Both the position numbers and the translations under genes were made by a program. Under the pieces are notes generated by a model. The model did no database searches. It was not told the origin of the DNA and saw only the letters and a program-made list of their open reading frames with translations. A stretch of DNA of 64,000 nucleotides, from the NCBI RefSeq assembly GCF_001741865.1, contig NZ_CP017147.1:5757001-5821000 (forward strand), read 5' to 3'. The DNA is from Bosea vaviloviae (lineage in GTDB: Bacteria; Pseudomonadota; Alphaproteobacteria; Rhizobiales; Beijerinckiaceae). Positions 4,297-49,942 of the stretch are shown here, in pieces (within the stretch, counting starts at the first letter, position 1; each line of letters starts with the position of its first letter).

Positions 4297-7200
4297 TCAC
4301 CCCTTCGGCTTGCCATATCCCCCGGCCGTCGGCGTGATCACCGTCACCGCCTCACCGGCCTGCAGCAGCGTTTGATCGGAGGGCTTCAGCTCCTCGACCA
4401 CGCCGGACAGCCTGCGCACCGTCGTCTTGCCCAATTGCCCGGCCTCGCCGCCTTTCATGCCGAAGGGGCGGACCTTGCGATGCGAGGCGAGGATGGCGCA
4501 GTCCATGGTCTTGCGGAAACGGATGGTACGGCTGGTGCCGTCGCCGGCGCTCCACTGCCCCTTGCCGCCGGAGCCGGCCCGGATGTGGAAATCCTCCAGC
4601 ACGACCGGGAAACGCGTCTCCAGGATTTCCGGGTCGGTCAGGCGCGAGTTCGTCATATGGACATGCACACCCGAGGTGCCGTTGAAACCTGGGCCCGCAG
4701 GCGAGCCCGAGCAGATCGTCTCGTAATACTGGTACTCGTCATTGCCGAAGGTGAGGTTGTTCATCGTGCCCTGCGAGGCCGACATCGCCTCCAGCGCCCC
4801 GAACAACGTGTTCGTCACCGCCTGGCTGACCTCGACATTGCCCGCCACCACGGCAGCCGGATAACGCGGCGAGAGCATCGACCCCTCCGGGATGATGATC
4901 CTGATCGGCCTGAGGCAGCCGGCATTCATCGGGATCGCATCATCGACCATGACGCGGAAGACATAGAGCACGGCGGCGCGCGTCACCGGCGCCGGCGCGT
5001 TGAAATTGTCGCCGCGCTGCTCCGAAGTGCCGGTGAAGTCGACCGTCGCCTCGCGCTTTTCGCGATCGATCGTGACCTTGACCTTGATCGCGCAGCCCTG
5101 GTCCATCGGATAGGTGAACTCGGCGTCGTGGAGCTTGGTCAAAAGCCGCGCCACGCTCTCGGCCGCATTGTCCTGGACATGGCCCATATAGGCCTGGACC
5201 ACGTCGAGACCGAAGGAGGCGATCATCTTCCTGAGCTCCGCCACGCCCTTCTCATTAGCGGCGATCTGGGCCTTCAGATCGTTGACGTTCTGGACGACGT
5301 TGCGGACCGGATAGCGCGCGCCGGTCAGGAGCTTGACGAGATCATCCTCGCAGAAGCGGCCCTGATCGACGATCTTGAAATTGTCGATATAGACGCCCTC
5401 CTCCTCGATATGCGTCGCCAGCGGCGACATCGAACCAGGCGCCACGCCGCCGACATCGGCATGATGGCCGCGGCTCGCCACCCAGAACAGGATCGCCTTG
5501 TCCGCTTCGTCGAAGACCGGCGTGCAGACGGTGATGTCGGGCAGATGCGTCCCGCCATTATAGGGCGCATTCAGGCAGTAGACATCGCCCGGCATGATCA
5601 CCGGGTTGTTCTTGATGACGGTCTCGACCGACTTGTCCATCGAGCCCAGATGCACCGGCATGTGAGGCGCGTTGGCGACGAGAGAGGCGGTGGTGTCGAA
5701 GACAGCGCAGGAGAAGTCGAGCCGTTCCTTGATGTTCACGGAATAGGCAGTGTTCTGCAGCGTCACGCCCATCTGCTCGGCGATCGACATGAACAGGTTG
5801 TTGAAGATCTCCAGCATCACCGGATCGGCCCTGGTGCCGATCGCGGCGTTCTGAACCAGCGCCTTCGAGCGCACCAGCACGAGATGGTCCTTGGCCGTAA
5901 GCTTGGCCGACCAGCCCTCCTCGACCACCACGGTCTGGTTCGGCTCGATGATGATGGCCGGCCCCGCAATCTGCTGACCGGGCGACATCGCCTCGCGGCG
6001 CACGATCGCCGCGTCATGCCACTGCCCCTTCGAAAAGAGGCGGGTGCGCTCGGCTGCTGCCGGCTCGCCGGCGCTCTCCGCCGACGACGCCTCCTCGAAC
6101 TTCGCCCCGCCGCCGACGGCCTCGACCTCGACCGCCTCGACGACCAGCGCCTTGCTCTCGTCCATGAAGCCGAAGCGCGCCTTATGCGCGAGCTGGAAAG
6201 CTTGCCTCATCCCGGCGCGGGTGCCGGCCGCAACGGCGATCGCCGTATCGGTGCCGGCATAGCGGATATGGGCTCTGATATGGATGGCGATTGCCTCAGT
6301 GGGCACGCCCTGCCCCGTCAATTCGGAGCGGGTCTCGGCCGCGAGCTTGTCTGCAACGCTTGCGATGGCAGCCTTCGCCCCATCGTCGAGCGGCACATCG
6401 AGCGCAGCCGTTCGCGTCGAGCGGATTTCGGCGAGCCCCATGCCATAGGCCGAGAGCAGGCCGGAGAATGGATGCAGCAGCACGGTCTTGATGCCGAGCG
6501 CATCGGCCACGAGGCAGGCATGCTGCCCGCCGGCACCGCCGAAGGAATTCAGCGCATAGCGGGTGATGTCGTAGCCGCGCTGGACGGAGATCTTCTTGAT
6601 CGCCTCGGCCATGTTGGCGACCGCGATCTGGATGAAGCCGTCGGCGACCTCCTCAGGCGAGCGGCCATCGCCGACCTCGGCCGCGAGCGCCGCGAACTTC
6701 GCCTTGACGGTCTCGACATCGAGCGGCTGATCGCGCTTCTCGCCGAAGATCGGCGGGAAATAGGCCGGGATCAGCTTGCCGACCATGACGTTCGCGTCGG
6801 TCACCGCGAGCGGCCCGCCACGGCGATAGGCGGCCGGGCCGGGATTGGCGCCGGCGGAATCGGGCCCGACGCGGAAGCGTGCACCGTCATAATGCAGGAT
6901 CGAGCCGCCGCCGGCCGCAACCGTATGGATCAGCATCATCGGCGCGCGCATCCGCACGCCGGCGACCTCGGTCTCGAAGGCACGCTCATACTCGCCGTCG
7001 AAATGGGCGACATCGGTCGAAGTGCCGCCCATGTCGAAGCCGATGACCTTGTCGAAGCCGGCCGAGCGGCCGGTCTCGGCGAGGCCGACGACGCCGCCGG
7101 CCGGGCCGGACAGGATCGCGTCCTTGCCCTGGAACAGTTCCGCGGCAGTGAGGCCGCCCGAGGACATCATGAACATCAAGCGCGCGCCGGTGCGGGCGAT

Positions 7201-23523: not shown

Positions 23524-23545
23524 CGCTTGTCCGGTTTCATCTGGT

Positions 23546-23670
23546 AGAGCCGGATGATGTCAGATGGAATCGCACAGTGATCCCAGCTGAAATCTGAATC
23601 CGTCTCTCATCTAAGAGTGAGAGCAGGATCAATGCGAAAAACCGGTTCCCACCTTTTCGCATCCTGCTCT
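23546..23670. repeat. 125-bp dispersed repeat, copy 1
   Basis: This 125-base unit recurs at 49818-49942 in the same orientation, without gaps and with 10 mismatches (about 92% identity). It holds two hairpins: one near the start (AGATGGAATC... region) and one near the end where GATCAATGCGAAAAACC leads toward TTTTCGCAT. It sits between the MidA-like gene and pgeF, interrupting what is usually a tight operon. Confidence 0.9.
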
Positions 23671-32150: not shown

Positions 32151-32241
32151 CGTCATTGCGAGCGCAGCGAAGCAATCCAGGGGGGCGTAGCGCACTGCCG
32201 CCCCTGGATTGCTTCGTTGGCTTCGCCTCCTCGCAATGACG
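32151..32241. repeat. palindromic repeat between moaD and moaE
   Basis: CGTCATTGCGAGCGCAGCG and its inverse ending CTCGCAATGACG bracket 91 bases whose inner arms AAGCAATCCAGGGG and CCCCTGGATTGCTT are perfectly inverse. A second copy with the same outer and inner arms lies at 63800-63881. It could hairpin the moaD-moaE transcript. Confidence 0.92.
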
Positions 32242-32251
32242 GTTTGGGTTG

Positions 32252-32707
32252 ATGACACCCATCATCCGCATCCAGCGCGAGGATTTCGATCTCTCGGCCG
32301 AGATCGCGGCGCTCACGGCCGGCCGCAGCGATATCGGCGCCGTCGTCAGCTTTTCCGGGCTCTGCCGCGACGAGGGCGGGCGATTGAAGGCACTCGAGCT
32401 CGAGCATTATCCCGGCATGGCCGAGGCCGAGATCGCCCGCGTCGCTGAGGAGGCAACGCGGCGCTGGCCGCTCTTGGGCCTCGTTGCCATCCATCGCCAT
32501 GGGCTGGTCGCGCCGGGCGAGCAGATCGTGCTGGTGATTGCAGCTTCCGCCCATCGCCGCGCCGCTTTTGAGGCGGCCGAATTCCTGATGGACTATCTCA
32601 AGACCCGCGCGCCGTTCTGGAAACGCGAGCATCTGCTCGACGGCACGATTGGCGGCTGGGTCGAGGCCAAGGATGCCGACGACAGGGCAGCCCAACGCTG
32701 GGAGTGA
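32252..32707 (+). CDS. moaE: molybdopterin synthase catalytic subunit
   Basis: A 151-aa enzyme that with MoaD converts precursor Z to molybdopterin. SDIGAVVSFSGLCRDEGGRL, then LELEHYPGMAEAEIARVAEE, IHRHGLVAPGEQIVLV and FLMDYLKTRAPFWKREHL are the expected family blocks; the active-site lysines KTRAPFWKRE are intact. The start at 32252 is just past the palindromic repeat. The next gene starts four bases after the stop. Confidence 0.95.
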   Translation: MTPIIRIQREDFDLSAEIAALTAGRSDIGAVVSFSGLCRDEGGRLKALELEHYPGMAEAEIARVAEEATRRWPLLGLVAIHRHGLVAPGEQIVLVIAASAHRRAAFEAAEFLMDYLKTRAPFWKREHLLDGTIGGWVEAKDADDRAAQRWE

Positions 32708-32711
32708 AACG

Positions 32712-33782
32712 ATGAGCCGCTGGCCGGGCCTGCTGATCGGAGTGCTGCTTCTGCCGAACACTTCCGCCAGCACGGCCGAGCTTCGCAGCAAGGTGTTTCG
32801 CGACTGGATCGCCGGCTGCGACAACCTCAACCAATGCGTGGCGCTGTCTTTTCCGGGAGAAGATGCCTCACCCGGCATCGCCTATCTCAAGCTGGAGCGA
32901 ATCGGCGGCGCATTGGCTGCGCCGACGCTCACGCTCAACCTGCGCGAAGCGAAGCTGAAGGAGAGCTTCCCCACCGAGCTGACGCTGGACGACGCACCTT
33001 TCCCGACTGCAGGGCACATGTTCAAAGGCTTCTCGATGGACGGAGAGGTCGGCGAGGTCGGACTGCCCGAGGCGGAGATCGCGGCGCTGCTCGCGGCCGC
33101 GCGCAAGGCAACGAAGCTTGCAGTGCGCTTCGAGGGCAAGAGTTTCGCCGTCTCGCTCGCCGGCGCGGTCGCGGCGATGATCTGGATCGATGAGCAGCAG
33201 GGAAGGCTCGGGACGGTCGACGCCCTGATCCGCAAGGGCGACGCGCCGGCCACGCGCGTGCAGCCGGCGCGGACCCTGCCGGTGATCACCGCCCGGGCGA
33301 CGGCAAAGCTGCCGAAGCCCGATGCGAAGACGGTGCAGGCGATCACCGGCGCGGTGCGCGACCAGGTCAAGGCCGGCGGCGCGACTGATTGCGACAATAG
33401 CGGCCCGGTCCGCGAGCCCGACCGCATCTGGCCGCTCGACGCCAATCGCAGGCTCGTCGCGCTGCACTGTGGCACCGGCGCCTATAATTCCGCGACCGGC
33501 TACTGGATCGTGACCGGCAATTCAGGCGCGAATGCGAAACCTGTCACCTTCCCGGGCGAGAAGAGCAACATTCTCGTCAACGCCGAATACGACCCGGACA
33601 AGGGACAGCTCAGCTATTACGGCAAGGGCCGTGGCGTCGGCGACTGCGGCAGCGCCGCCAACTACGCCTGGACCGGATCGGCCTTCGTGCTGACGTCGCT
33701 GACCCGGATGGAGGTCTGCCGGGGCCTGCCGCCCGACGACTGGCTCTCGCTGTTCCACAGCGAGGTGAAGGTGGCGAAATGA
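32712..33782 (+). CDS. DUF1176 exported protein, first of a tandem pair
   Basis: A 356-aa secreted protein of the DUF1176 family. A signal peptide (MSRWPGLLIGVLLLPNTSAS) precedes FRDWIAGCDNLNQCVALSF, the conserved cysteine-containing start. Later family blocks are SLAGAVAAMIWIDEQQGRLG and GVGDCGSAANYAWTGSAFVL followed by a pair of cysteines around MEVCRGLPPDDW. Conserved cysteines suggest disulphides in the periplasm. Its function is unknown. It follows moaE by four bases and overlaps its paralogue by four. Confidence 0.85.
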   Translation: MSRWPGLLIGVLLLPNTSASTAELRSKVFRDWIAGCDNLNQCVALSFPGEDASPGIAYLKLERIGGALAAPTLTLNLREAKLKESFPTELTLDDAPFPTAGHMFKGFSMDGEVGEVGLPEAEIAALLAAARKATKLAVRFEGKSFAVSLAGAVAAMIWIDEQQGRLGTVDALIRKGDAPATRVQPARTLPVITARATAKLPKPDAKTVQAITGAVRDQVKAGGATDCDNSGPVREPDRIWPLDANRRLVALHCGTGAYNSATGYWIVTGNSGANAKPVTFPGEKSNILVNAEYDPDKGQLSYYGKGRGVGDCGSAANYAWTGSAFVLTSLTRMEVCRGLPPDDWLSLFHSEVKVAK

Positions 33783-34873
33783 GCAGACTGGCGTGGGCGA
33801 ACGCCCATCTCGGCTTCGCGCTGCTTTGCGGCCTGCTCGCTTTGCCCGCCGGCGCGGCCGAACCCACCAGCGGAGCCTTCCGCGAATGGCTCGCCGGTTG
33901 CGACAATCTCGGGCGCTGCACGGCCCTGTCGCTTCCGGTCGACGGCGCGAGCTTTCCGGCCATGCTGATGCTCCAGCGCGAGGCCCGACCGGCCGCGCCG
34001 CCGGTCCTGACACTGACGCTGAAGGCCGACACGCTGCCGGAACTGCCGCTGGTCGCCAACCTTGCCGTGGACGGCGCACCCTTTCCCTCGCCGGGCGCAA
34101 AACTGACGGTCGAGCGCGCCGATCTCGAAACCGGTCGCGTGCGCTTCACGCCCGAGCAGATCGAGGCGCTGGTTGCCGCGATGCGCAAGGCAACCGCCAT
34201 GACCGCGACGATGGCGCGTGACAGCTACGAGATTCCGCTCGCCGGTGCTGTCGCCGCAATGCTCTGGCTGGACGAGCGACAGGGGCGGCTCTCGACGCCG
34301 ACGGCCTTGATCCGCAAAGGGGACACTTCGCCCACGCGCATCCCGCAGCCCGCCCCGCTGCCGATCGTAACGCCGGTGCCGACCAAAACCCTACGGGGGC
34401 CAACGAAGGCACAGGCAAAGGCGCTCGCCGCAGCGATGCGTGAACAGCTCCAGCGCACAGACCCCGATGCCTGCGAGGATAACGAGCCGGCCCGCGGGAT
34501 GGACAGCGCCGTCCAGATCGACCGCAGGAGCCGGCTCGTCATGCTCTCCTGCCTCGGCGGCGCCTACAACTACACCACGAGCTACTGGATCGTGCCTGGC
34601 AGCGATGTCGCCAAGGCGCGCAAGCTCGCCTTCCAGCAGCCGGGCAAACCCACCGGAAACCGCCTCATCAACGCCGAGTACGATCCGGCGACCGGCCAGA
34701 TCGCCTTTCTCGAAAAGGGGCGCGGCCCCGGCGATTGCGGCCGCCTGGGCGGCTACGCCTGGACCGGGAAGAACTTCGTGCTTACGACCTACGCCGAGAT
34801 GCCGCGCTGCCAGGGCCTGCTGCCCGACGACTGGCTGGTGCTCTGGCGCAGCGAGGTGAAGGCCGCCAAGTAG
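33779..34873 (+). CDS. DUF1176 exported protein, second of a tandem pair
   Basis: A 364-aa paralogue of the preceding gene. Signal peptide MSRLAWANAHLGFALLCGLL is followed by FREWLAGCDNLGRCTALSL, matching FRDWIAGCDNLNQCVALSF in the partner. SLAGAVAAM/PLAGAVAAM, DDRQGRL-like and GPGDCGRLGGYAWTGKNFVL blocks repeat in the same order. The overlap ATGA with the upstream gene indicates co-translation. The two proteins clearly arose by duplication but are divergent; whether they interact is unknown. Confidence 0.85.
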   Translation: MSRLAWANAHLGFALLCGLLALPAGAAEPTSGAFREWLAGCDNLGRCTALSLPVDGASFPAMLMLQREARPAAPPVLTLTLKADTLPELPLVANLAVDGAPFPSPGAKLTVERADLETGRVRFTPEQIEALVAAMRKATAMTATMARDSYEIPLAGAVAAMLWLDERQGRLSTPTALIRKGDTSPTRIPQPAPLPIVTPVPTKTLRGPTKAQAKALAAAMREQLQRTDPDACEDNEPARGMDSAVQIDRRSRLVMLSCLGGAYNYTTSYWIVPGSDVAKARKLAFQQPGKPTGNRLINAEYDPATGQIAFLEKGRGPGDCGRLGGYAWTGKNFVLTTYAEMPRCQGLLPDDWLVLWRSEVKAAK

Positions 34874-35065: not shown

Positions 35066-35953
35066 TCACGCCGCCTTGGACTGCGGCCGTACCGCGGCCG
35101 AGTAATCCTCCATGATCACCTTGCCCATATTGCCGGTGATGAAGGAGTAGGGCCCGATCTCGGAGACCAGCGTCACTTCGGCGGCAGAGCCGGTGATGAA
35201 GCACTCGTTGAAGCTCTCCAACTCCTCGGGGCGGATGCGACGCTCGACCACCTCGAAGCCACGCTTCTTGCACTGCTCGATCACCGACTGGCGGGTCAGG
35301 CCGTTGAGGAAGCGGTCGGCGAGCGGGGTATGGACCACGCCGTCCTTGATGAAGAAGATGTTGGCGCCGGTGCATTCGGCGACATTGCCTTCCCAATCCA
35401 GCATCATCGCGTCGGCATAGCCGGCGCGCTCGGCCTTATGCTTCGACAGCGAGCAGATCATGTAGAGGCCCGCCGCCTTGGCATGGACCGGGGCGCAGGC
35501 CGGATCGGGCCGACGATAGGTCGCGACGTCGAGGCGCACGCCCTTCAGCTTCTGCGCCATGTCGAACATGCTCGGCCACTCCCAGACCGCGATCGCGGTA
35601 TGGATCGTGTTGTTCATGCCGGACACCGCCATCATCTCCGAGCCGCGCCAGGCGACCGGGCGGATATAGGCGTCCTTCAGTCCGTTTTCCTTCAGGCAGA
35701 GATATTTGGCGGCGTCGAGCTCGGCGACCGAGTAGGGGATCGTGAAATCCATGATCTCAGCCGATTTGTGGAAGCGCTGCGAATGCTCGGTGCCCTTGTA
35801 GATGACGCCGTCATAGGAGCGCTCGCCCTCGAACACGCAGGAGCCGTAATGCAACCCATGGGTCAGTACGTGCACCTTGGCGTCCTTCCACGGCACGAGC
35901 TTGCCGTCGAACCAGATGACGCCATCGCGCTGGTCGAAAGGAATGACTGACAT
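35066..35953 (-). CDS. ilvE: branched-chain-amino-acid aminotransferase
   Basis: A 295-aa PLP enzyme of fold IV that transfers amino groups to and from leucine, isoleucine and valine. WFDGKLVPWKDAKVHVLTHG and LHYGSCVFEGERSYDG are the N-terminal blocks, the PLP lysine is in SLSKHKAERAGYADAM, and EGNVAECTGANIFFIKDG plus ITGSAAEVTLVSEIG carry the cofactor-phosphate contacts. AAGAGGAGCACCCC precedes the ATG. It is divergent from a MarR regulator and may share its control region. Confidence 0.93.
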   Translation of the reverse strand: MSVIPFDQRDGVIWFDGKLVPWKDAKVHVLTHGLHYGSCVFEGERSYDGVIYKGTEHSQRFHKSAEIMDFTIPYSVAELDAAKYLCLKENGLKDAYIRPVAWRGSEMMAVSGMNNTIHTAIAVWEWPSMFDMAQKLKGVRLDVATYRRPDPACAPVHAKAAGLYMICSLSKHKAERAGYADAMMLDWEGNVAECTGANIFFIKDGVVHTPLADRFLNGLTRQSVIEQCKKRGFEVVERRIRPEELESFNECFITGSAAEVTLVSEIGPYSFITGNMGKVIMEDYSAAVRPQSKAA

Positions 35954-36103
35954 GGGGTGCTCCTCTTGCACATCCGATTTTGAACATACGGTTCGGCCAA
36001 ACACCGCCACAACGGCGTAAAACGCGCAAGTCCGGACCGAAAAATGCGCGACGGCGGCCTATTGCGACATATTCCGTCGCCATGCACGCTTGACCGGTAA
36101 TCT

Positions 36104-36135
36104 TACGTCTGAGATATGTCAACATCACTGACGTA
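36104..36135. promoter_or_regulatory. inverted repeat and promoter in the ilvE/MarR intergenic region
   Basis: TACGTC (36104-36109) and GACGTA (36130-36135) are perfect inverse arms around a 20-base centre that includes TGTCAA at 36117-36122, which read on the minus strand is a consensus TTGACA -35 box for ilvE. A regulator binding the arms would flank this box. The MarR protein encoded 9 bases downstream is the obvious candidate. Confidence 0.5.
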
Positions 36136-36143
36136 TAGCGGGG

Positions 36144-36662
36144 ATGCTGCTGGTGACGGACACGCACGCTCGACCGATCGACCCGGCCAAAGCCCCGGCA
36201 ATGACCGAAGAGGTGCCCTTCGATTTGATCGAATTGCTGTTCTTCGCCTATCGCGATTTCGTCGGCGATCCCGACCGTATCCTGTCCGAATACGGCTTCG
36301 GGCGGGCCCATCATCGCGTCCTGCATTTCGTTCTGCGCCGGCCGGGCCTCACCATCGCCGAGCTGCTCGACATCCTGCAGATCACCAAGCAGAGCCTGAA
36401 CCGTGTCCTCAAGGAACTGGTCGAGACCGGCTATGTTGAGCAGCGCACCGGCGTCCAGGACAAGCGCCAGCGCCATCTCCACAGCACGCCAGCCGGCGAG
36501 AAACTCGCGCTCAGCCTGGTGCAATTGCAGGCCAAGCGCATCAACGCCGCCCTCGACGGCGTCGGTGCCGAGGCGGCCCCAATCGTCGCACGCTATCTCG
36601 CGGGGTTGATCGACGCATCGGAACGCCACAAAGTGCTGGGATTCCTTGCCAAGCCGCGATGA
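36144..36662 (+). CDS. MarR family transcriptional regulator (PetP-like position)
   Basis: A 172-aa winged-helix protein. DLIELLFFAYRDFVGDPDRI, FGRAHHRVLHFVLRRPGLTI, helix-turn-helix AELLDILQITKQSLNRVLKE and wing GYVEQRTGVQDKRQRHLHST are clear MarR features. The combination of a MarR gene directly before an OmpR-type regulator gene recalls petP-petR of Rhodobacter; that parallel is by arrangement and memory, not by search. Start is uncertain: ATG 36201 would remove 19 unconserved residues. Confidence 0.85.
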   Translation: MLLVTDTHARPIDPAKAPAMTEEVPFDLIELLFFAYRDFVGDPDRILSEYGFGRAHHRVLHFVLRRPGLTIAELLDILQITKQSLNRVLKELVETGYVEQRTGVQDKRQRHLHSTPAGEKLALSLVQLQAKRINAALDGVGAEAAPIVARYLAGLIDASERHKVLGFLAKPR

Positions 36663-36782
36663 GCGAGGCGACTGAATCTATGCGGCCAGCAACACGCCAA
36701 CGTCACCATGGCGTGTCAGAAGGATGACTTGGCCGGCATGCCGGACGCCGCTCCGGCCCGAAAACAAGGATGTGAACAGCCG

Positions 36783-37511
36783 ATGGCCGCCGCCAGCGCG
36801 CGACAACCGCTCCCCGACGAAGCGCCCCATATCCTTGTGGTCGATGACGACCGCCGCCTGCGCGATCTGCTGGGACGCTTCCTCGGCGACAATGGTTACC
36901 GCATCACCACCGCAGCCAGCGCTGCGGAGGCCGATACGCGGCTGACCAGCTTCGTCTTCGACGCCATCGTGCTCGACATCATGATGCCGGGCGAGAACGG
37001 CTTCGATTTCGCCAAGCGCTTCCGCTCCGATTCCGCCATCCCGATCCTGATGCTGACCGCGCGCGCCGACAGCAAGGATCGCATCAACGGGCTCGAACTC
37101 GGCGTCGACGATTATCTCGCCAAGCCCTTCGAGCCGCGCGAATTGCTGCTGCGGCTCGGCAACATCCTCAAGCGCACGATCGTCGTCGATACCGCGCAAT
37201 CCGCGACACGCCCGGATTTCGTCCGCTTCGGCCCCTTCGTCTACGGGTTGGCGCGCGGCGACCTTCACAAGGGCGAGGAGATGATCCGCCTGACCGAGCG
37301 CGAGCGCGAAATCCTGACCGCACTGGCCGAACGCGCCGGCGAGGTCGTGCCGCGCGAACAGCTCGCAGCCCAAGGCAGCGCCGCCAATGACCGCACCGTC
37401 GACGTGCAGATGAACCGTCTGCGCCGCAAGGTCGAGCGCGACCCCGCCGATCCGCTCTATCTGCAGACCGTGCGCGGCGTCGGCTATCGCCTCGTGACGG
37501 ATCGCGCGTGA
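36783..37511 (+). CDS. OmpR family response regulator
   Basis: A 242-aa two-domain regulator. The receiver domain has the acidic pair in ILVVDDDRRL, phospho-acceptor Asp65 in AIVLDIMMPGENG and the conserved lysine 114 in LAKPFEP. The C-terminal winged helix includes IRLTEREREILTALAERAGE and VDVQMNRLRRKVERDPADPL. It overlaps the histidine kinase gene by four bases (GTGA) and surely forms a pair with it. ATG 36783 was chosen; in-frame ATGs at 36708 and 36738 would add residues without homology. Confidence 0.92.
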   Translation: MAAASARQPLPDEAPHILVVDDDRRLRDLLGRFLGDNGYRITTAASAAEADTRLTSFVFDAIVLDIMMPGENGFDFAKRFRSDSAIPILMLTARADSKDRINGLELGVDDYLAKPFEPRELLLRLGNILKRTIVVDTAQSATRPDFVRFGPFVYGLARGDLHKGEEMIRLTEREREILTALAERAGEVVPREQLAAQGSAANDRTVDVQMNRLRRKVERDPADPLYLQTVRGVGYRLVTDRA

Positions 37512-38965
37512 CACCCGTGCAGCCCGCCGATCGCCGGTCGCGCCTGACCCGGGCGGCAGGGCTGGGCGTGAACCGGGCGCTGGCGGCGAGCGCACGCTGG
37601 CGCGCCAGCCTGCACAGCACGCTGAAACCGATGTTGAAGGCCGCCGGCCGGCCGCTGCACGGCATCGCGCGCTACATGCCCAAGGGGCTCTATCCGCGCG
37701 CCCTCGTCATCGTCATCGCGCCGGTCGTATTGCTGCAATCCGTCATCGCCTATGTCTTCATGGAACGGCATTGGCAGACCGTGACGCAGCGCCTGTCCTC
37801 GGCCGTCTCGGCCGACATCGCCATGTTGATCGACGTCTATGAGAGCTATCCGCAGGACGCCGACACCACGATCCTGTCGCGTATCGCAGCCGACAGGCTC
37901 GGCATGGATGTCGATATCCTGCCCGATTCCGACCTGCCGGCACCGGGCCCGCGGCCCTTCTTCTCACTGCTCGACAACGCGCTCTCGACCGAGCTGAGCC
38001 AGCAGGTGGCGCGGCCGTTCTGGCTCGACACGGTCGGTCGCTCCAGCCTGATCGAAATCAGGATCAAGCTCGGCAAGAACGTGATGCGCGTGCTGACGCG
38101 GCGCAACTCGGCCTATGCCTCGAACAGCCATATCTTCCTGCTCTGGATGCTCGGCACCTCGCTGATCCTGCTGACGATTGCGGTCTTGTTCCTGCGCAAC
38201 CAGATCCGGCCGATCCTCAAGCTGGCCGATGCGGCGGAGGCCTTCGGCAAGGGCCGCGACGCCGAGTTCCGCCCGCGCGGCGCGCGCGAGGTCCGTCGTG
38301 CCGGCAACGCCTTCATCGAGATGAAGCGCCGCGTCGAACGCTCCATCGGCGAGCGCACGACGATGCTGAACGGCGTCAGCCACGACCTGCGCACCATCCT
38401 GACCCGCTTCAAGCTCTCGCTGGCACTTCTTGAGCGCTCCACCGAGATCGACGCACTTGAGAAAGACGTCGACGAGATGAGCCGCATGCTTGAGGACTAT
38501 CTCGCCTTCGCACGCGGCGACGCCGGCGAAGCGCCGGTCGAAACCGACATCCGCGCTCTGCTTGAGGAATTGAAATTCGACGCGGAAAGGCAGGGCCACC
38601 AGACCGAACTCGAGGTCGTCGGCGACCCGCTCGTGGTGATCAGGCCCGACGCCTTTCGCCGCTTGCTGACTAACCTCGTCTCCAACGCCGCTCGCTTCGG
38701 CGACCGCATCGCCATCCGTGCGACGCATGACGCGCGTTATCTGATCGTGGTGGTCGAGGATGACGGCCCTGGCATCCCGCCCGAGCAGCGCGAGGAGGTC
38801 TTCCGCCCCTTCTTCCGGCTGGACGAGGCCCGCAATGTCGACAGCGGCGGCACGGGGCTCGGCCTCGCGATCGCCCGCGACATCGCCCGCGCCCATGGCG
38901 GCGACATCATCCTGGCGGATTCGAGCCTGGGCGGATTGCGGGCGACGGTGCGGCTGCCCGTGTAG
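37508..38965 (+). CDS. sensor histidine kinase, EnvZ-like
   Basis: A 485-aa inner-membrane kinase starting at GTG. A basic N-tail leads to helix 1 (ALVIVIAPVVLLQSVIAYVF), a periplasmic loop of about 120 residues, helix 2 (IFLLWMLGTSLILLTIAVLF) and a HAMP segment. The H-box is NGVSHDLRTILTRFKLSLAL with His292 (Ile replaces the usual Pro after the Thr), the N-box RRLLTNLVSNAARFG, and the G boxes VEDDGPGIPPEQ and GGTGLGLAIARD. The final 29 codons are duplicated at 40048-40135. It overlaps its response regulator gene. Confidence 0.92.
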   Translation: MTPVQPADRRSRLTRAAGLGVNRALAASARWRASLHSTLKPMLKAAGRPLHGIARYMPKGLYPRALVIVIAPVVLLQSVIAYVFMERHWQTVTQRLSSAVSADIAMLIDVYESYPQDADTTILSRIAADRLGMDVDILPDSDLPAPGPRPFFSLLDNALSTELSQQVARPFWLDTVGRSSLIEIRIKLGKNVMRVLTRRNSAYASNSHIFLLWMLGTSLILLTIAVLFLRNQIRPILKLADAAEAFGKGRDAEFRPRGAREVRRAGNAFIEMKRRVERSIGERTTMLNGVSHDLRTILTRFKLSLALLERSTEIDALEKDVDEMSRMLEDYLAFARGDAGEAPVETDIRALLEELKFDAERQGHQTELEVVGDPLVVIRPDAFRRLLTNLVSNAARFGDRIAIRATHDARYLIVVVEDDGPGIPPEQREEVFRPFFRLDEARNVDSGGTGLGLAIARDIARAHGGDIILADSSLGGLRATVRLPV

Positions 38966-40135
38966 GGGCGGCTTTGAGTGGAGGCTGTGAAAGTGCGATT
39001 GTGCATCAATTTCGACTGATGCGCGTGGGCCTAAGGTTCTCGCCTTCGATGAAGCGTGCCATGCAAGCCTCGGATCGCTACAAAAAGCCTACCAAATCAC
39101 TTCCGTTCCACACAGCCTCGGTGGGGAAGGGAAATTCGCGCTCGTAAAAAAGATCACCACTTACTGAAGTCGCCATGGACCAAATTGGACATCGGTGCGT
39201 AGTCATACGGATTTGTCACTGGAACAAGACGAGGTTCTGGGTAGTCAGATAGCCAAGGTATTTTTGATCTTAACGTTCTGGTGACAGGCGTACCGGTCAG
39301 TCGATCCAGAGGCCCTATCGGTATTCCCGAAGAGACCATTTCGATACGCACAGCTTTCAAATTTACGCCCTTGCCGAAGGAAGCGGACAGGTTGCTTTTC
39401 TCAACGCGTGCAAGTGATCGCGGATTGCTTAAATCGTAAAGTCTGACGAACATCGGCATCACGGACTCGGGAACGTTCGCTTCGGCTCGCAGCGCGTGGT
39501 AAAAGCTAATTCCCTCCGGTGTTCCCGGCGCAGGACCTGGAAAGGCAGCCGAATAGATATACACTGCGTTATCGGCATTTTGCTCAGACCGCAGAAGCAC
39601 AAAAAAGCTCCCGCGCTTGCCAAGATCAACCATCACGGCCTCTCCAGCAGCGGTTGTTCTCCGCCGCCCTCGATCGACCTTCACTTGGATAACACCTGAG
39701 CCCGAACGCATCCCCTCCGGGGTATCTACATCCACAGTGAGCCGGTAGCGCCATATCGGCTGCGGCATTAGCAGCGCGGCAAAAATCACGAGGATGAAGG
39801 CCGCTGCTACGATTAGTGCGATGTGTCGCCTAGAAAGTGTCGTCACCACAGACAGCCCATCACTGCAAACAATCGTGGCGGTCACATTAGCCCGTGTCTT
39901 ACACTCGACCGTTAATCCGGTGCGGTGCGTCGCGAACGTCCGCATCGGCTCAAAAAAACTCCTGCAATCGAGCCCATCTGCACCTCTACTACAAGCGCTG
40001 CTGGGCCCAGCTCTCACAAGAAATGCGGCAGCTTCGACAACGGCTTCCCCGCGACATCGCGCGCGCCCATGGCGGCGACATCATCCTGGCGGATTCGAGC
40101 CTGGGCGGATTGCGGGCGACGGTGCGGCTGCCCGT
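38874..40135. mobile_element. insertion at a gene 3' end bounded by 88-bp direct repeats
   Basis: The last 88 bases of the kinase gene (38874-38961) recur at 40048-40135 with a single mismatch. Both copies keep the kinase frame and end LPV followed by a stop codon (TAG and TGA). The 1086 bases between are visibly lower in GC than the surroundings and hold one foreign-looking gene. The kinase terminator-like hairpin lies 65 bases past the second copy, so the second copy appears to be the original gene end. This is the signature of integration into a gene 3' end with reconstitution of the gene. No integrase is present. Confidence 0.65.
39154..39945 (-). CDS. membrane-anchored protein of unknown function, cargo of the insertion
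   Basis: About 263 aa with one hydrophobic segment (IALIVAAAFILVIFAALLM) near the N-terminus and a long soluble part, probably periplasmic. No enzymatic motif is recognised; RLTVDVDTPEGMRSGSGVIQ is the first soluble strand region and the chain ends VHGDFSKW. Base composition is clearly lower in GC than neighbouring genes, a sign of transfer. The start is unsure: ATG 39945 is used, but GTG codons at 39849 and 39846 would place the membrane segment directly at the N-terminus. Similar unnamed proteins seem to exist in other Proteobacteria. Confidence 0.6.
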   Translation of the reverse strand: MRTFATHRTGLTVECKTRANVTATIVCSDGLSVVTTLSRRHIALIVAAAFILVIFAALLMPQPIWRYRLTVDVDTPEGMRSGSGVIQVKVDRGRRRTTAAGEAVMVDLGKRGSFFVLLRSEQNADNAVYIYSAAFPGPAPGTPEGISFYHALRAEANVPESVMPMFVRLYDLSNPRSLARVEKSNLSASFGKGVNLKAVRIEMVSSGIPIGPLDRLTGTPVTRTLRSKIPWLSDYPEPRLVPVTNPYDYAPMSNLVHGDFSKW

Positions 40136-40200
40136 CTGACCAGAGGCAAATAGGGACTATGGGCCCCGGCAAATCACCTCCGGAAGCCTGTCGGCAAACG

Positions 40201-40232
40201 CAGATCGTCCCGGCGGCAGCCGGGACGATCTG
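40201..40232. terminator. bidirectional-looking terminator hairpin
   Basis: CAGATCGTCCCGG (40201-40213) pairs perfectly with CCGGGACGATCTG (40220-40232) around a six-base loop. On the plus strand it is followed by CTATTTCT. It can serve the kinase operon from the left and the DUF1127 gene from the right. Confidence 0.7.
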
Positions 40233-40262
40233 CTATTTCTAGCGAATGAAGCTGACCCGCTG

Positions 40263-40487
40263 CTACCGGCGGCGCCAGAACGCCCAACGGGCGGTCTCGT
40301 TCACCCGCTCCACATCGCTGCGCGACAGCGCGATGTCCGAGAGCGCGGAATCGTCCATGCGGTAGAGCGCTCGCGCGCTGGCCCGCGCCGTGAGCCAATC
40401 CTCCAGGCGCAGGAACAGGCCGTGGAGCCCGTGCGCGCTGCGATGTGTGGCGAAGGCAAGATTTTCTGTGGCGATCATGGCCGGCAT
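40263..40487 (-). CDS. DUF1127 small protein
   Basis: A 74-aa basic protein whose second half has the DUF1127 pattern: ALYRMDDSALSDIALSRSDV matches the family core L-x-x-L-x-D-x-x-L-x-D-I-G-L-x-R. ACAGGAGGCCGCC before the ATG is a very good ribosome binding site. Some DUF1127 members in alphaproteobacteria take part in RNA-linked phosphate or stress responses, but a role here cannot be assigned. It is divergent from a LysR regulator. Confidence 0.88.
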   Translation of the reverse strand: MPAMIATENLAFATHRSAHGLHGLFLRLEDWLTARASARALYRMDDSALSDIALSRSDVERVNETARWAFWRRR

Positions 40488-40591
40488 GGCGGCCTCCTGT
40501 GATAGATTTCCTGCCTGTAATTTGGGGGTTGCGGGGCCTCTAAGCAAATGAGAAGTTCTTTGCTTCAGCCCAAGCAGAACTTGGCCATGCG

Positions 40592-41515
40592 ATGACCCGG
40601 CGCCAACTCCCGCCCCTCACCTCCTTGCGCGCCTTCGAGGCTGCGGCGCGGCACCTCAACTATGAGCGGGCGGGTGACGAGCTCGCCGTCACCGCCAGCG
40701 CGGTTGGCCAGCAGGTGAAGACGCTCGAAACCTGGCTCCGGCGGCCTCTCTTCGTCAGGCTGCCAAGCAAGGGCATCGCGCTGACGGGCATCGGACAGCG
40801 CTATGCCGCCTCGATCTCGCAATTGCTCGACCAGCTCGACGAGGCCACGGCGCGGGCGCTGCGGCCCGATGTGTCGAACGTCCTGACTGTCAGCACCATG
40901 CCGAGCTTCGCCCTGAGCTGGCTGATCCCGCGGCTCGGCTCGCTCAAGCAGCGCCACCCCGAGCTCGAGGTTCGCATCTCGGTTTCGCTGCACCTGACCG
41001 ATTTCGCGCGCGAGGACGTCGATGTCGCGGTCCGCTACGGTCCCGGTGGCTATCAGGGCCTGCACTCGGAGCTGCTGATGGCGGAGAGTTTCTTCCCCGT
41101 CTGCAACGCAGCATTGCTCAACGATCCCGCGCGCCCGCTGCGCCAGCCCTCGGATTTGCGCCACCACACCTTGCTGCACGAGCACGTGGAGGGTATCCCG
41201 GACTACGTCACTTGGCCGAAATGGCTCGCCTTCGTCGGCGTCCATGACATCGACGCGATGCACGGCCCGCGCTTCTCGCACACTTTCCTCGCCTTGCAGG
41301 CGGCGGCCTCCGGCCAGGGCATCGCCCTGGCGACGAGCGCCCTGATCGGCGACTATCTCGACGCCGGGCGCCTCGTCCGCCCGTTTCCGCAACAGCTGCA
41401 GAGCTCCTTCCAGTATTATGTGGTCTGCCCCGAGGCCTCCGCAGAGCGGCCCGCAATCGCGGCGTTCCGCAGCTGGATCCGCGAAGAGGCGGCCCAACAC
41501 GCCGATCTGCGCTGA
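40592..41515 (+). CDS. LysR family regulator, GcvA-like
   Basis: A 307-aa LysR-type activator. The N-terminal helix-turn-helix LTSLRAFEAAARHLNYERAG, then ELAVTASAVGQQVKTLETWL and the start of the effector domain LTVSTMPSFALSWLIPRLGS match the GcvA/AmpR group. WLIPRLGxFxxxHPxxEV is typical. The co-inducer and target are unknown; the divergent DUF1127 gene or the downstream exported protein gene could be targets. Confidence 0.9.
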   Translation: MTRRQLPPLTSLRAFEAAARHLNYERAGDELAVTASAVGQQVKTLETWLRRPLFVRLPSKGIALTGIGQRYAASISQLLDQLDEATARALRPDVSNVLTVSTMPSFALSWLIPRLGSLKQRHPELEVRISVSLHLTDFAREDVDVAVRYGPGGYQGLHSELLMAESFFPVCNAALLNDPARPLRQPSDLRHHTLLHEHVEGIPDYVTWPKWLAFVGVHDIDAMHGPRFSHTFLALQAAASGQGIALATSALIGDYLDAGRLVRPFPQQLQSSFQYYVVCPEASAERPAIAAFRSWIREEAAQHADLR

Positions 41516-41642
41516 TCGCCGCGAGCGGCCGGGCGCACCACGGCCGCCGCCCCGAATGGCAGTAGCGTCCGCCCCCACCCCGTCGCATCATGGCGCCCAG
41601 TGAACGGGCCACGGCTTCCCGAGCGGAGACAGGCGGGAACGG

Positions 41643-42335
41643 ATGACGGTGGCGATGAGGATGCTCCTGCTCACGGCGCTGCTGGCGCTGCCCTGCGCCG
41701 CTTCGGCCGAAGAGGTCGTCGAACTCGGCGGCGGCCTGTTCGGCGGTGGCCGGGCCTTGCTCAACAAGCCGGCGGGCAAGGCCAGGGCCGGGCTCGTCCT
41801 GCTGACGGGCGGCGACGGCTATGTCGGCATCGGCAGCGGCGGCGATGTCGCCCGGCAAGGCAACTGGATCGTGCGCATGCGCGGCGCCTATGCCCGCAGC
41901 GGCATCGCCAGCATCCTCGTCGATGGCGACGCTGACCCGACCAAGGCCATCGACCTCATGCGCAGCATCGCACCGCGCGTCATCGTCGTCGCGATGAGCC
42001 GGGGTTCGCTCAAAATTCCAGGCCTGCTCGCGTCGCGGCCCGACGGCGTGGTCTTCGTCTCGTCGATGCTCGACGACGTTCGCGCCACGCTGGGCGATCC
42101 CGCGCGCCTGCCGCCGACATTGGTCGTGCATCATCGCCAGGATAGCTGCCGCGTGACGCTGGCTGACTCGGTCGCGCCCTTCCAGGCTTGGGCCGGCAAT
42201 CGCGCCAGGACGGTCTGGATCGATGGCGGCACCTCGACCGGCAATCCCTGTCAGGCGCGAGCCTATCACGGCTTCATCGGCCGCGAAGGCGCCGTCGTCT
42301 CCGCGATCACCGGCTTTGCCGGATCGCTGCGCTGA
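41643..42335 (+). CDS. exported alpha/beta-hydrolase-like protein
   Basis: A 230-aa protein with a signal peptide (MRMLLLTALLALPCAASAEE). GLVLLTGGDGYVGIGS gives a glycine-rich oxyanion-like loop, IVVAMSRGSLKIPG resembles a nucleophile elbow with the serine in SRGS, VVHHRQDSCRV could supply the acid, and QARAYHGFIGREG a histidine. This order fits a divergent alpha/beta hydrolase, though the GxSxG motif is altered, so activity is uncertain. It stands alone between two LysR genes. Confidence 0.65.
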   Translation: MTVAMRMLLLTALLALPCAASAEEVVELGGGLFGGGRALLNKPAGKARAGLVLLTGGDGYVGIGSGGDVARQGNWIVRMRGAYARSGIASILVDGDADPTKAIDLMRSIAPRVIVVAMSRGSLKIPGLLASRPDGVVFVSSMLDDVRATLGDPARLPPTLVVHHRQDSCRVTLADSVAPFQAWAGNRARTVWIDGGTSTGNPCQARAYHGFIGREGAVVSAITGFAGSLR

Positions 42336-42356
42336 AGCATTCCGGATGTCACTGCG

Positions 42357-43265
42357 TCAGCGGCCGGGCTCGGGCCGGATGACGCTCAGATGCAGCAGGC
42401 GCGAGGCCGCGAAATCGATGAAGGCGCGCACCTTCGGCGCCAGGCGCTGGCCGCTGGGCACCACGAGCTGGACCGGTGACGGTGGCGGCTCGAATTCCGG
42501 CAGCAGGCGAACGAGCACACCGGCAGCCAGATCGTCGGCCGCCTGATAGGACAGCAACCGTGCCAATCCGCGCCCGGCGCGTGCCGCGATCAGCACCGCC
42601 TCGACCTCGTTGATGATGAGGCGCGGCGTGATCGCGATGCGCGAGGACCGCCCCCCTCCCCCGAAACGCCAGATCAGATCGCCGCCGGCGCCGACATTGG
42701 CGATGACATCGTGCCCAGCGATGTCGGCAAGGCGCTTGGGCGCCGGCCGGCGCTGCAGATAGGCCGGAGACGCCACCAGCACGCGCCTGACCTCGCCGAC
42801 CTTGCGCACGACCAGCCGCGAATTGGGCAGTGCCCCGACCCGGAGCGCGACATGCAGATCCTCCTCGATGAGATCGAGATTGCGGTCGGCCAGCACGAGC
42901 TCGACCTGCAGCTCGGGATGCAGATCGAGGAACTCCGCGACCAGCGGCGTCACATGCCTCCTCCCGAAGGCGAGCGGCGCGGTCACGCGCAGCAGGCCGC
43001 GAACCGGCGCCGCCGCCACCCCGCCCAGCGACTCCTCGTAATCCGCCAGCATGCGCCGCGCCGCGACCGCCAGTTCCTGCCCGGCCTCCGTCGGCGTGAG
43101 CTGGCGGGTGGTGCGGGCGATCAGCCTTGCGCCGACGCGCTCCTCGAGCCCGGCGAGCGCGCGTGTCACGGCGGGACGCGAGCGACGCAGGCGCCGCGCC
43201 GCCTCCGCAAGGCTGCCGGCATCGATGATGGCGACGAAGATCGCGAGTTCGTCGAGACGATCCAC
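42357..43265 (-). CDS. LysR family transcriptional regulator
   Basis: A 302-aa LysR protein. MDRLDELAIFVAIIDAGSLA and EAARRLRRSRPAVTRALAGL are the DNA-binding helix-turn-helix, and GLLRVTAPLAFGRRHVTPLV opens the effector-binding domain. This layout belongs to the CrgA/AaeR-like group. It is divergent from a GST/flavoprotein gene pair that it probably controls; LysR proteins usually bind a T-N11-A site in such an intergenic region. Confidence 0.9.
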   Translation of the reverse strand: MDRLDELAIFVAIIDAGSLAEAARRLRRSRPAVTRALAGLEERVGARLIARTTRQLTPTEAGQELAVAARRMLADYEESLGGVAAAPVRGLLRVTAPLAFGRRHVTPLVAEFLDLHPELQVELVLADRNLDLIEEDLHVALRVGALPNSRLVVRKVGEVRRVLVASPAYLQRRPAPKRLADIAGHDVIANVGAGGDLIWRFGGGGRSSRIAITPRLIINEVEAVLIAARAGRGLARLLSYQAADDLAAGVLVRLLPEFEPPPSPVQLVVPSGQRLAPKVRAFIDFAASRLLHLSVIRPEPGR

Positions 43266-43343
43266 GGACTGTTCCGCTTAATGAAATTCTGAAGTCAATG
43301 GATAGCAGATTTCCCGCGATGGCTGGAACGATCATCTTGCGGG

Positions 43344-43381
43344 CGTTCTTCAGCGAGGTTCCCGTTCTTCAGCGAGATTCC
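43344..43381. repeat. 19-bp tandem duplication over the GST ribosome binding site
   Basis: CGTTCTTCAGCGAGGTTCC (43344-43362) is followed without gap by CGTTCTTCAGCGAGATTCC (43363-43381), one mismatch. The second copy ends one base before the GST start codon and supplies its AGCGAGA ribosome binding site. Confidence 0.9.
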
Positions 43382-43382
43382 T

Positions 43383-44006
43383 ATGACACAGCCCCGGATC
43401 GTTCTTCATGGCACGCCGCTCTCCGGCCATGCCCACCGCGTCGAATTGCTGCTGCTGGCGCTCGGCCTGCCCCATGAGCTTGCCTCCGCGCCCGCCGACA
43501 TCCGCCGCAGCGACGCCTTCCGCAAGCTGAACCCGCTGCAGCAGATCCCGGTGCTGCAGGATGGCACGCTCACGCTCTGCGACAGCAACGCGATCATGGT
43601 CTATCTCGCCAAGCGCTATGGCGCGGGCAGCCAATGGCTGCCGGAGGAGCCGATCGCGGCGGCGCAAGTGCAGCGCTGGCTCTCGATCGCCGCGGGCGAG
43701 GTCATGCACGGGCCGGGCAGCGCCCGCTTGATCGCGCAGTTCGGTGTGGCCGATGACCCCGCGCGCGCCGGCCGTATCGCCAGCAAGTTGCTCGGCTTCA
43801 TGGAGGGGCACCTGACCGGGCGCGACTTCCTCGCCGCCGAGCACGCCACCCTCGCCGACCTCGCCTGCTTCTCCTATGTCGCGCATGCGCCGGAAGGCGG
43901 CATATCGCTGGCGCCCTATCCCGCCTTGAGGGGCTGGATTGCCCGGATCGAGGCGCTGCCCTTCTTCAAGGCGATGCCCGCCTCGCCCTTGCCCCAGGCG
44001 AGTTGA
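43383..44006 (+). CDS. glutathione S-transferase family protein
   Basis: A 207-aa GST. IVLHGTPLSGHAHRVELLLL contains the likely catalytic serine, and FRKLNPLQQIPVLQDGTLTL with CDSNAIMVYLAKRYG are the glutathione-binding blocks. FLAAEHATLADLACFSYVAH is the conserved N-capping region of the C-terminal domain. The next gene begins five bases after its stop. The divergent LysR protein probably regulates the pair. Confidence 0.9.
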   Translation: MTQPRIVLHGTPLSGHAHRVELLLLALGLPHELASAPADIRRSDAFRKLNPLQQIPVLQDGTLTLCDSNAIMVYLAKRYGAGSQWLPEEPIAAAQVQRWLSIAAGEVMHGPGSARLIAQFGVADDPARAGRIASKLLGFMEGHLTGRDFLAAEHATLADLACFSYVAHAPEGGISLAPYPALRGWIARIEALPFFKAMPASPLPQAS

Positions 44007-49757: not shown

Positions 49758-49817
49758 GGCGGTCTCTCGCAAGGCGGCAACGGGCGTCATGCTCGGGCGT
49801 GACCCAAGCATCTCTCT

Positions 49818-49942
49818 AGAGCCGGATGATATCAGATGGAATCACCAAGTGATCCCATCTGATATCTGAATCCGTCTCTCAACTAAGAGTGAGAGCAGGA
49901 TCAATGCGAAAAACCGGTGCCCACTTTTTCGCATACTGCTCT
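49818..49942. repeat. 125-bp dispersed repeat, copy 2
   Basis: Same-length, same-orientation copy of the element at 23546-23670 (10 mismatches). Here the first hairpin is nearly perfect: ATATCAGATGGAATCA (49829-49844) faces TGATCCCATCTGATAT (49850-49865). It lies upstream of proC, before the ybjN gene. Confidence 0.9.

Follow-up and report, generated by a model that had tools for sequence, protein, structure and literature searches.

A single-gene insertion behind a histidine kinase gene of Bosea vaviloviae and similar gene-end remnants elsewhere

How can a single gene be added behind a resident gene while the latter stays whole? The question is raised by a locus in the chromosome of Bosea vaviloviae (contig NZ_CP017147.1, positions 5,757,001 to 5,821,000; this stretch of 64,000 nucleotides [nt] is called the window here, and coordinates of the kinase locus refer to it), where the last 88 nt of a sensor histidine kinase gene recur downstream and the DNA between the two copies holds one gene, a member of a protein family that we term X. 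Because the three closest relatives carry the empty allele, it is clear that 1174 bp were inserted behind the kinase gene. We give a probability of roughly 60% to a recent additive insertion of one foreign gene through recombination at the kinase gene end, and among the several gene-end scars observed in this genome the case is most probably the youngest.

The insertion behind the kinase gene

The two repeat copies (Table 1) are identical at 87 of 88 positions and spaced 1174 nt apart, the sole mismatch being at position 14, where the left copy has C and the right G. Both run in frame to a stop, and the stops differ: the left copy leads into ...CCC GTG TAG and the right into ...CCC GTC TGA. 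By arithmetic, the chance of a stop exactly at the native position is about 3 in 64. A whole-genome search (6,713,548 bases, 2 contigs) places the 88-mer at exactly two sites. The first-pass annotation, made from the sequence of this region, had reported the repeat with this length, spacing, single mismatch, and in-frame stops, and its coordinates are exact. A scan for direct repeats (at least 80% identity, 0.2- to 4-kb spacing) across 938,531 bases, comprising the window and 58 loci downstream of the kinase in relatives, yielded three, with the kinase repeat being the sole one of the gene-end kind. With a looser filter, the same 58 loci gave two more repeats (L075 and L089), neither tagged as a gene end with a downstream copy.

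The kinase proteins of the three closest relatives compared (genomes G032, G001, and G008) are 97 to 98% identical to that of the window. Their DNA aligns with the window from ~36000 to 38961, resumes directly at 40048, and continues to ~41600, with a single repeat copy. In all three the kinase gene ends in GTC TGA, so the right window copy is the one that runs on into the native DNA, with the left copy having an end of its own. The first-pass annotation had read the repeats as integration with restoration of the gene's 3' end, and had named an allele without the insert and with one repeat copy as its check; the alleles of these three relatives are of precisely this form and support that reading. 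We examined 29 relative loci, in two of which the sequence past the kinase is shorter than 1 kb; all have one full kinase end (E ≤ 1e-6), and nothing that matches the insert follows it in any of them. At the kinase-end position, the stop is TGA in 34, TAG in 21, and TAA in 6 of 61 records, which include the window's left copy and count G079 twice. G010, which is among the 29, has in addition a decayed second end of the kinase gene (55 nt, E = 7e-6), situated immediately after another gene; apart from the window's, no other was found in 60 sequences from downstream of the kinase, three of them shorter than 2 kb, which represent the window and 59 other genomes. In G079 (L058 and L059), an assembly break falls at the kinase 3' end, and two contigs seem by coordinates to overlap by ~127 bp; a repeat could be hidden there.

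Excluding the repeat, the insert has a guanine-plus-cytosine (GC) content of 54.3% over 1086 nt versus 65.7% for the window, and none of 1259 window stretches of 1086 nt, sampled every 50 nt, is as low, the lowest ones overlapping the insert. It carries one likely gene, X, which faces the kinase gene and encodes a protein with an N-terminal helix predicted at residues 19 to 38. The X protein has no Pfam family above cut-off, and searches of NCBIfam, PHROGs, and PADLOC returned nothing at E ≤ 0.1. Its predicted fold (mean predicted local distance difference test score, 73.9) matches no PDB structure at E ≤ 0.001, and one weak PDB sequence match was obtained (E = 0.22). An Rfam scan of 36000-43000 gave a single match, far below the gathering score. 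The earlier description of the DNA between the repeats, as lower in GC and holding one unrecognized membrane-anchored protein gene, is confirmed by the base composition, the missing family match, and the predicted helix.

We observe no recombinase domain in the open reading frames (ORFs) of the insert or in the scanned flanking genes (35066-44006), in agreement with the earlier statement that the element has no integrase. No tRNA was found within the window, and GTA_TIM (PF13547) has 0 matches in the genome. X has no phage match and no close plasmid copy (7 records, all below 60% identity), and two IMG/VR contigs hold distant X genes.

Table 1. Features of the kinase locus, with window coordinates, and gene-end remnants found elsewhere
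Feature	Position or locus	Strand	Repeat	Basis or remark
Response regulator gene (Response_reg PF00072 + Trans_reg_C PF00486), upstream of kinase	36708..37511	+		Pfam; best NCBIfam match OmpR, below cut-off
Sensor histidine kinase gene, insertion target, intact	37508..38965	+		Pfam HisKA + HATPase_c; best NCBIfam match EnvZ, below cut-off
Left copy of kinase 3' end, within intact gene; then GTG TAG	38874..38961	+	88 nt	Repeat comparison
Inserted DNA excluding repeat, 1086 nt, 54.3% GC	38962..40047	.		Missing here in three closest relatives
Orphan membrane-anchored protein gene, family X, 243 amino acids (aa)	39154..39885	-		Protein-database prediction; predicted helix
Right copy of kinase 3' end (remnant); then native GTC TGA and native downstream DNA	40048..40135	+	88 nt	
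Native DNA downstream of kinase	40136..41630	+		Contiguous with single kinase end in G032, G001, G008
pcrA/uvrD 3'-end remnant			247 bp, 85% identity	
MacB-like permease 3'-end remnant			187 bp, 88% identity	
GMP reductase 3'-end remnant	L300		219 bp, 84% identity	Counted by inspection; gene caller took wrong strand
murD 3'-end remnant	L277		99 bp, 86% identity	Counted by inspection; repeat ends 40 nt before stop
truB 3'-end remnant			71 bp, 90% identity	
CAAX protease end	L274		110 bp, 82% identity	Sixth, weaker, decayed case
Acyltransferase gene end, Qipengyuania vesicularis	L131		123 bp, 93%	Directly behind X; third decayed copy behind further ORF
193-aa gene end (GcrA-like by eye)	L194		33 bp, 97%	X between
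247-aa ORF end	L234		73 bp, 74%	X between
585-aa ORF end	L238		89 bp, 74%	Repeat runs 62 nt past stop; by inspection, rule tagged spurious ORF
Last part of acetolactate synthase small-subunit gene, possible case	L195		48 bp, 81%	Short of stop

Gene-end remnants in the same chromosome and in other genomes

The same layout is met elsewhere in this chromosome. In 797 kb outside the window (861 kb with it), sampled as two blocks, 15 direct repeats passed the filter, and by inspection five of these are 3'-end remnants behind an intact gene, each repeat being specific to its own gene and 71 to 247 bp long (Table 1). A strict rule keeps only three loci outside the window (L275, L278, and L294). The cargo between gene ends and remnants includes genes for RsgA, a GGDEF protein, an ABC transporter, HxlR, and GST, and in several older cases each copy ends in a stop of its own. 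Extrapolated from the two blocks, five scars per 797 kb would correspond to about forty in 6.7 Mb at a constant rate. Repeats dropped from the counts were a partial tRNA-like repeat by eye (L310), intergenic or internal repeats (L312, L299, and L302), repeats inside genes (L281 and L285), tandem paralogues (L288 and window 32673/33779), repeats that stop short of the stop codon (L301 and L313), and a 44-bp repeat at 80% seen in one scan only (L279).

Behind murD, comparison of genomes shows serial addition of cargo: murD adjoins the ftsW region in the cargo-free relatives G036 and G083, the GGDEF stretch lies directly behind murD in G008 and G001, and G032 shares a further stretch with the genome studied here. 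Across the genus, the murD-ftsW stretch (L277 and L314-L343) varies from near adjacency (G036 and G083) to ~1 kb or more of added genes.

Scars of this kind are also found in other genomes. The congeneric genome G089 has a BKACE gene whose end (105 bp, 87%) is repeated after a flavin adenine dinucleotide (FAD) oxidoreductase gene that is present also in G009, G031, and G088; in G011 and G083 the BKACE gene adjoins an ABC1-kinase gene, without cargo. Direct repeats around X were sought in two sets of its loci, one of 54 (the window's own included, with 21 first taken with 1.5-kb flanks) and one of 60. At 4 of 98 loci besides the window, all in other Alphaproteobacteria, X lies between a gene end and its remnant (L131, L194, L234, and L238), and L195 is a possible further case. 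Scars around genes other than X occur among the same 98 loci at L147, at L241, and, by eye, at L216; L241 is the G089 case, with X just outside the scar. X may thus be a favored passenger of gene-end scars. The idea that X is a mobile cassette in its own right was rejected, with host genes and repeats being different each time. Also set aside were repeats that look like dispersed elements (L187, L128, L137, L222, L225, and L231) and repeats that are part of tandem X and lipase-like genes (L119, L123, L127, L132, and L202).

Some of these loci are arrays. In L131, the second and third copies of the acyltransferase end enclose a 202-aa ORF (4831-5439), which forms a second cargo of the same array. 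In L147 (5318-6965), the end of a minus-strand 611-aa ORF recurs twice, ~0.7 kb apart and with ORFs between, as a serial array beside X and a lipase-like gene. The 234-bp repeat of L216 (7069-8325; 91%), from another family of the order, reads as a glnA 3' end, a name given by eye.

Gene ends were also compared with gene starts. Among 694 called genes in 861 kb, the raw scan gave 10 matches of an end downstream, 3 of a start upstream, 3 of an end upstream, and 3 of a start downstream; after removal of paralogues, internal matches, and wrong-strand calls, six end cases (the window and GMP reductase included) and, by inspection, no start case are left. The strict rule gives 4 end rows and 1 start row in this genome, and 6 and 2 at the X loci, with all three start rows removed by inspection (an antisense ORF over paralogues, a dispersed repeat, and a spurious ORF). 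As printed, ends outnumber starts by 10 to 3 (two-sided sign test, p = 0.09) and after inspection by 11 to 0 (p = 0.001); these values are qualified by the choice of the window for its repeat and by the lack of independence among rows that share an array.

Across nine older cases, one of them the glnA end of L216, the remnant and the intact end differ at 142 sites, of which 81 are third codon positions (p = 6e-9 against one third); single cases reach 11 of 14 (BKACE) and 8 of 9 (acyltransferase). This pattern supports, without proving, that end and remnant differ as alleles from different cells would. The window repeat offers one difference only for such a comparison.

Recombination at a gene end and the alternatives

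The arrangement at the kinase would follow if a related cell had donated DNA in which the kinase 3' end, 88 nt or more in length and complete with a stop codon of its own, was followed by the orphan gene, and if this fragment had recombined with the resident kinase gene at that single region of homology. In the simplest form, the fragment would have been closed into a circle and taken up by a single crossover within the gene end; in a second form, its far end would have been joined by illegitimate recombination. Either form would leave the kinase whole, add a neighbor gene behind it, and leave the resident 3' end past the cargo as a scar, and both presuppose a route of DNA entry into the cell. 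We favor recombination through the gene end with a relative's fragment because the repeats are gene-specific and of variable length, the cargo consists mostly of ordinary genes, no recombinase was found, and several copies have their own stops.

Several observations weigh against this reading. No donor in which the kinase is followed by X was found; X relatives occur in eight other genomes of the genus, on another contig or at least ~41 kb from the kinase. The window kinase shows no mosaic signal relative to G032, G001, and G008, which requires either a same-species donor or homogenization of the copies. The DNA just behind the left copy is unlike that behind other kinases of the genus (156 of 300 shuffles score at least as well). 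The third-position bias is missing in pcrA/uvrD (13/34) and truB (2/7) and is not significant for murD alone (7/13); substitutions that the intact copy acquired later likewise fall at third positions, and native and donor copies could not be told apart in the two older cases tested. No gene-end remnant was found among the 751 to 753 genes of the 58 relative loci beyond the kinase. The rate may therefore be uneven; these loci are one homologous region many times over, yet the null still speaks against a uniform high rate. Finally, no recombination event was observed.

For the window locus alone, the main rival is that the 88 bp were duplicated on the spot at insertion, either through the filling in of a staggered break or through replication that moved to a foreign template and returned 88 nt upstream. 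Copies that differ at one site and a kinase gene free of mosaic signal are what such an event would leave. However, the left copy ends at the last codon and then has its own in-frame stop unlike the native one, several older cases have two own stops, and the mainly third-position differences of the nine cases are unlike those of fresh local copies; we regard local duplication as unlikely, if well worth considering. It is very improbable that X was ancestral and was lost in the relatives: recombination between the repeats would yield exactly the empty allele observed, but such loss would be required at all 29 relative loci examined, the GC content of the insert is far from that of the window, and the X relatives of the genus are distant (at most 39% identical) and located elsewhere than the kinase.

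A further alternative is a site-specific integrative element of the tyrosine-recombinase type, or an X-based unit moved in trans, that used the kinase 3' end as its attachment site and is, at 1.1 kb, nonautonomous or collapsed. Such an element would account for a direct repeat that restores the gene end, the low GC, the empty allele in relatives, the second use of the same kinase end with another gene in G010, and the recurrence of X between gene ends and remnants in L131, L194, L234, and L238. Neither the insert nor the scanned flanking genes encode a recombinase, however, and the 88-mer is nowhere else in the genome. Moreover, five or more unrelated genes have the layout behind them, with repeats that are particular to each gene and vary in length, and the hosts of the X cases differ too; one enzyme would not recognize all of these, and the cargo elsewhere consists of genes such as those for the GGDEF protein, ABC transporter, RsgA, HxlR, and GST. 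Because other genes show the same layout, with gene-specific repeats of 71 to 247 bp and ordinary cargo, a site-specific integrase acting in cis or in trans is unsupported, and we consider an integrative element improbable. The first-pass annotation had offered two such origins. Movement by an integrase in trans finds no footing, given the lack of a recombinase, of a tRNA, and of further 88-mers, and given the gene-specific repeats behind other genes; the other, a collapsed island, is conceivable at the kinase locus, though nothing points to it. The search it proposed for other elements ending in the same 88 bases gave none more in the genome and, among the 59 other genomes of the genus, the one decayed end of G010 behind a different gene.

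Known systems and the X family

Genomic islands enter gene 3' ends via tyrosine recombinases, restoring the gene end and leaving direct repeats at both ends. The kinase locus shares with integrase islands the gene-restoring repeat and the empty allele; a recombinase and further copies of the end sequence are not seen. It differs from such islands also in its size of ~1.1 kb and in the gene-specific repeats behind several genes of one genome. Of the features of an additive, one-anchor process, we observe DNA added beside the homology, a gene kept whole, and a gene-specific end duplication of varied length.

Other parallels come from three published studies. In Escherichia coli, DNA with one homologous end gave a polymerase chain reaction (PCR) product indicative of gene-end duplication in 56 of 60 clones, with duplications of 109 to 950 bp in the 14 sequenced, and these were explained by a circular molecule and a single crossover (PMC3240628). 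As in these single-crossover duplications and in the homology-facilitated illegitimate recombination (HFIR) described beside them, a single homologous end suffices in our proposal, foreign DNA is added, and a gene end is duplicated (PMC3240628). The E. coli work used a laboratory plasmid, whereas the products seen here are natural, involve several host genes, and are known from sequence (PMC3240628). Classical HFIR predicts deletion of recipient DNA, and none is seen at the window locus. For arrays of effector and immunity genes of the Vibrio type VI secretion system (T6SS), HFIR has been proposed, with the 3' end of the older effector shifted back (PMC5361080). One-sided homology additions, a displaced 3' end of the older gene, and serial additions are common to both systems. 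In the Vibrio arrays the anchor is an effector region and the cargo an effector-immunity pair; here, in contrast, the anchors are the kinase gene, murD, truB, and others, and the cargo is unrelated (PMC5361080). Among small variable segments of E. coli, Staphylococcus aureus, and Streptococcus pyogenes, 10 to 18% are flanked by direct repeats, and illegitimate recombination is discussed (PMC2884548). Those repeats are mostly shorter than 30 bp and were read as sites of deletion or slippage, unlike the 71- to 247-bp gene 3' ends found in this genome (PMC2884548). A literature search, limited in terms and collection, returned no title or abstract opening on genome-wide gene-end scars behind unrelated genes.

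Taken beyond the kinase locus, it is possible, and we put this forward tentatively, that single genes are gained in this lineage, and perhaps in further Alphaproteobacteria, for the most part behind 3' ends of resident, even essential, genes in a strongly 3'-polar, recombinase-free, and scar-leaving manner, with the immunity-like X as a recurrent passenger. If this is true and the sampled rate holds, some forty readable scars in the genome would form a dated record of gene gain, of which serial additions behind one gene (murD here, the acyltransferase gene in L131) would be part. Gene gain outside mobile elements mostly leaves no trace of how it took place. From gene-end scars one can read the anchor gene, the cargo, both junctions, and, via decay of the remnant, a relative age; such scars would allow events to be counted per genome and the 3'-end preference to be tested as a matter of mechanism versus selection. 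The process looks like a simple route of gene gain with no mobile-element machinery in sight.

The distribution of X is patchy, with X relatives in 16 of 121 related genomes, 50 of 397 genomes of the order, and 4 of 385 of the class (own genome counted each time). A lipase-like gene, whole or truncated, neighbors X in 29 of 114 rows, which correspond to ~25 of no more than 101 distinct loci; no such gene was found at the window locus, where X stands alone. The motif GHSLGG is present in all nine lipase-like proteins used for the profile, and a scan of nine lipase-like neighbors, two of them fragments, found RTX repeats in five and a lipase domain in one above the Pfam cut-off. Judging from these neighborhoods, X may be a partner or immunity protein of secreted lipase-like RTX proteins. 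X genes are often in tandem with lipase-like neighbors, some cut to ~100 aa (L118, L120-L124, L127, L132, L139, L141, and L202).

Three further repeats were noted within the window. Positions 23545-23670 and 49817-49942 form a 126-bp direct repeat of 92% identity, 26 kb apart. The repeat at 32151-32242 and 63799-63881 matches in both orientations (84% inverted, 80% direct) and is probably a palindromic dispersed element. Last, 32673-33782 and 33779-34873 are adjacent paralogous genes, tandem copies that are ~67% alike in DNA over 637 columns.

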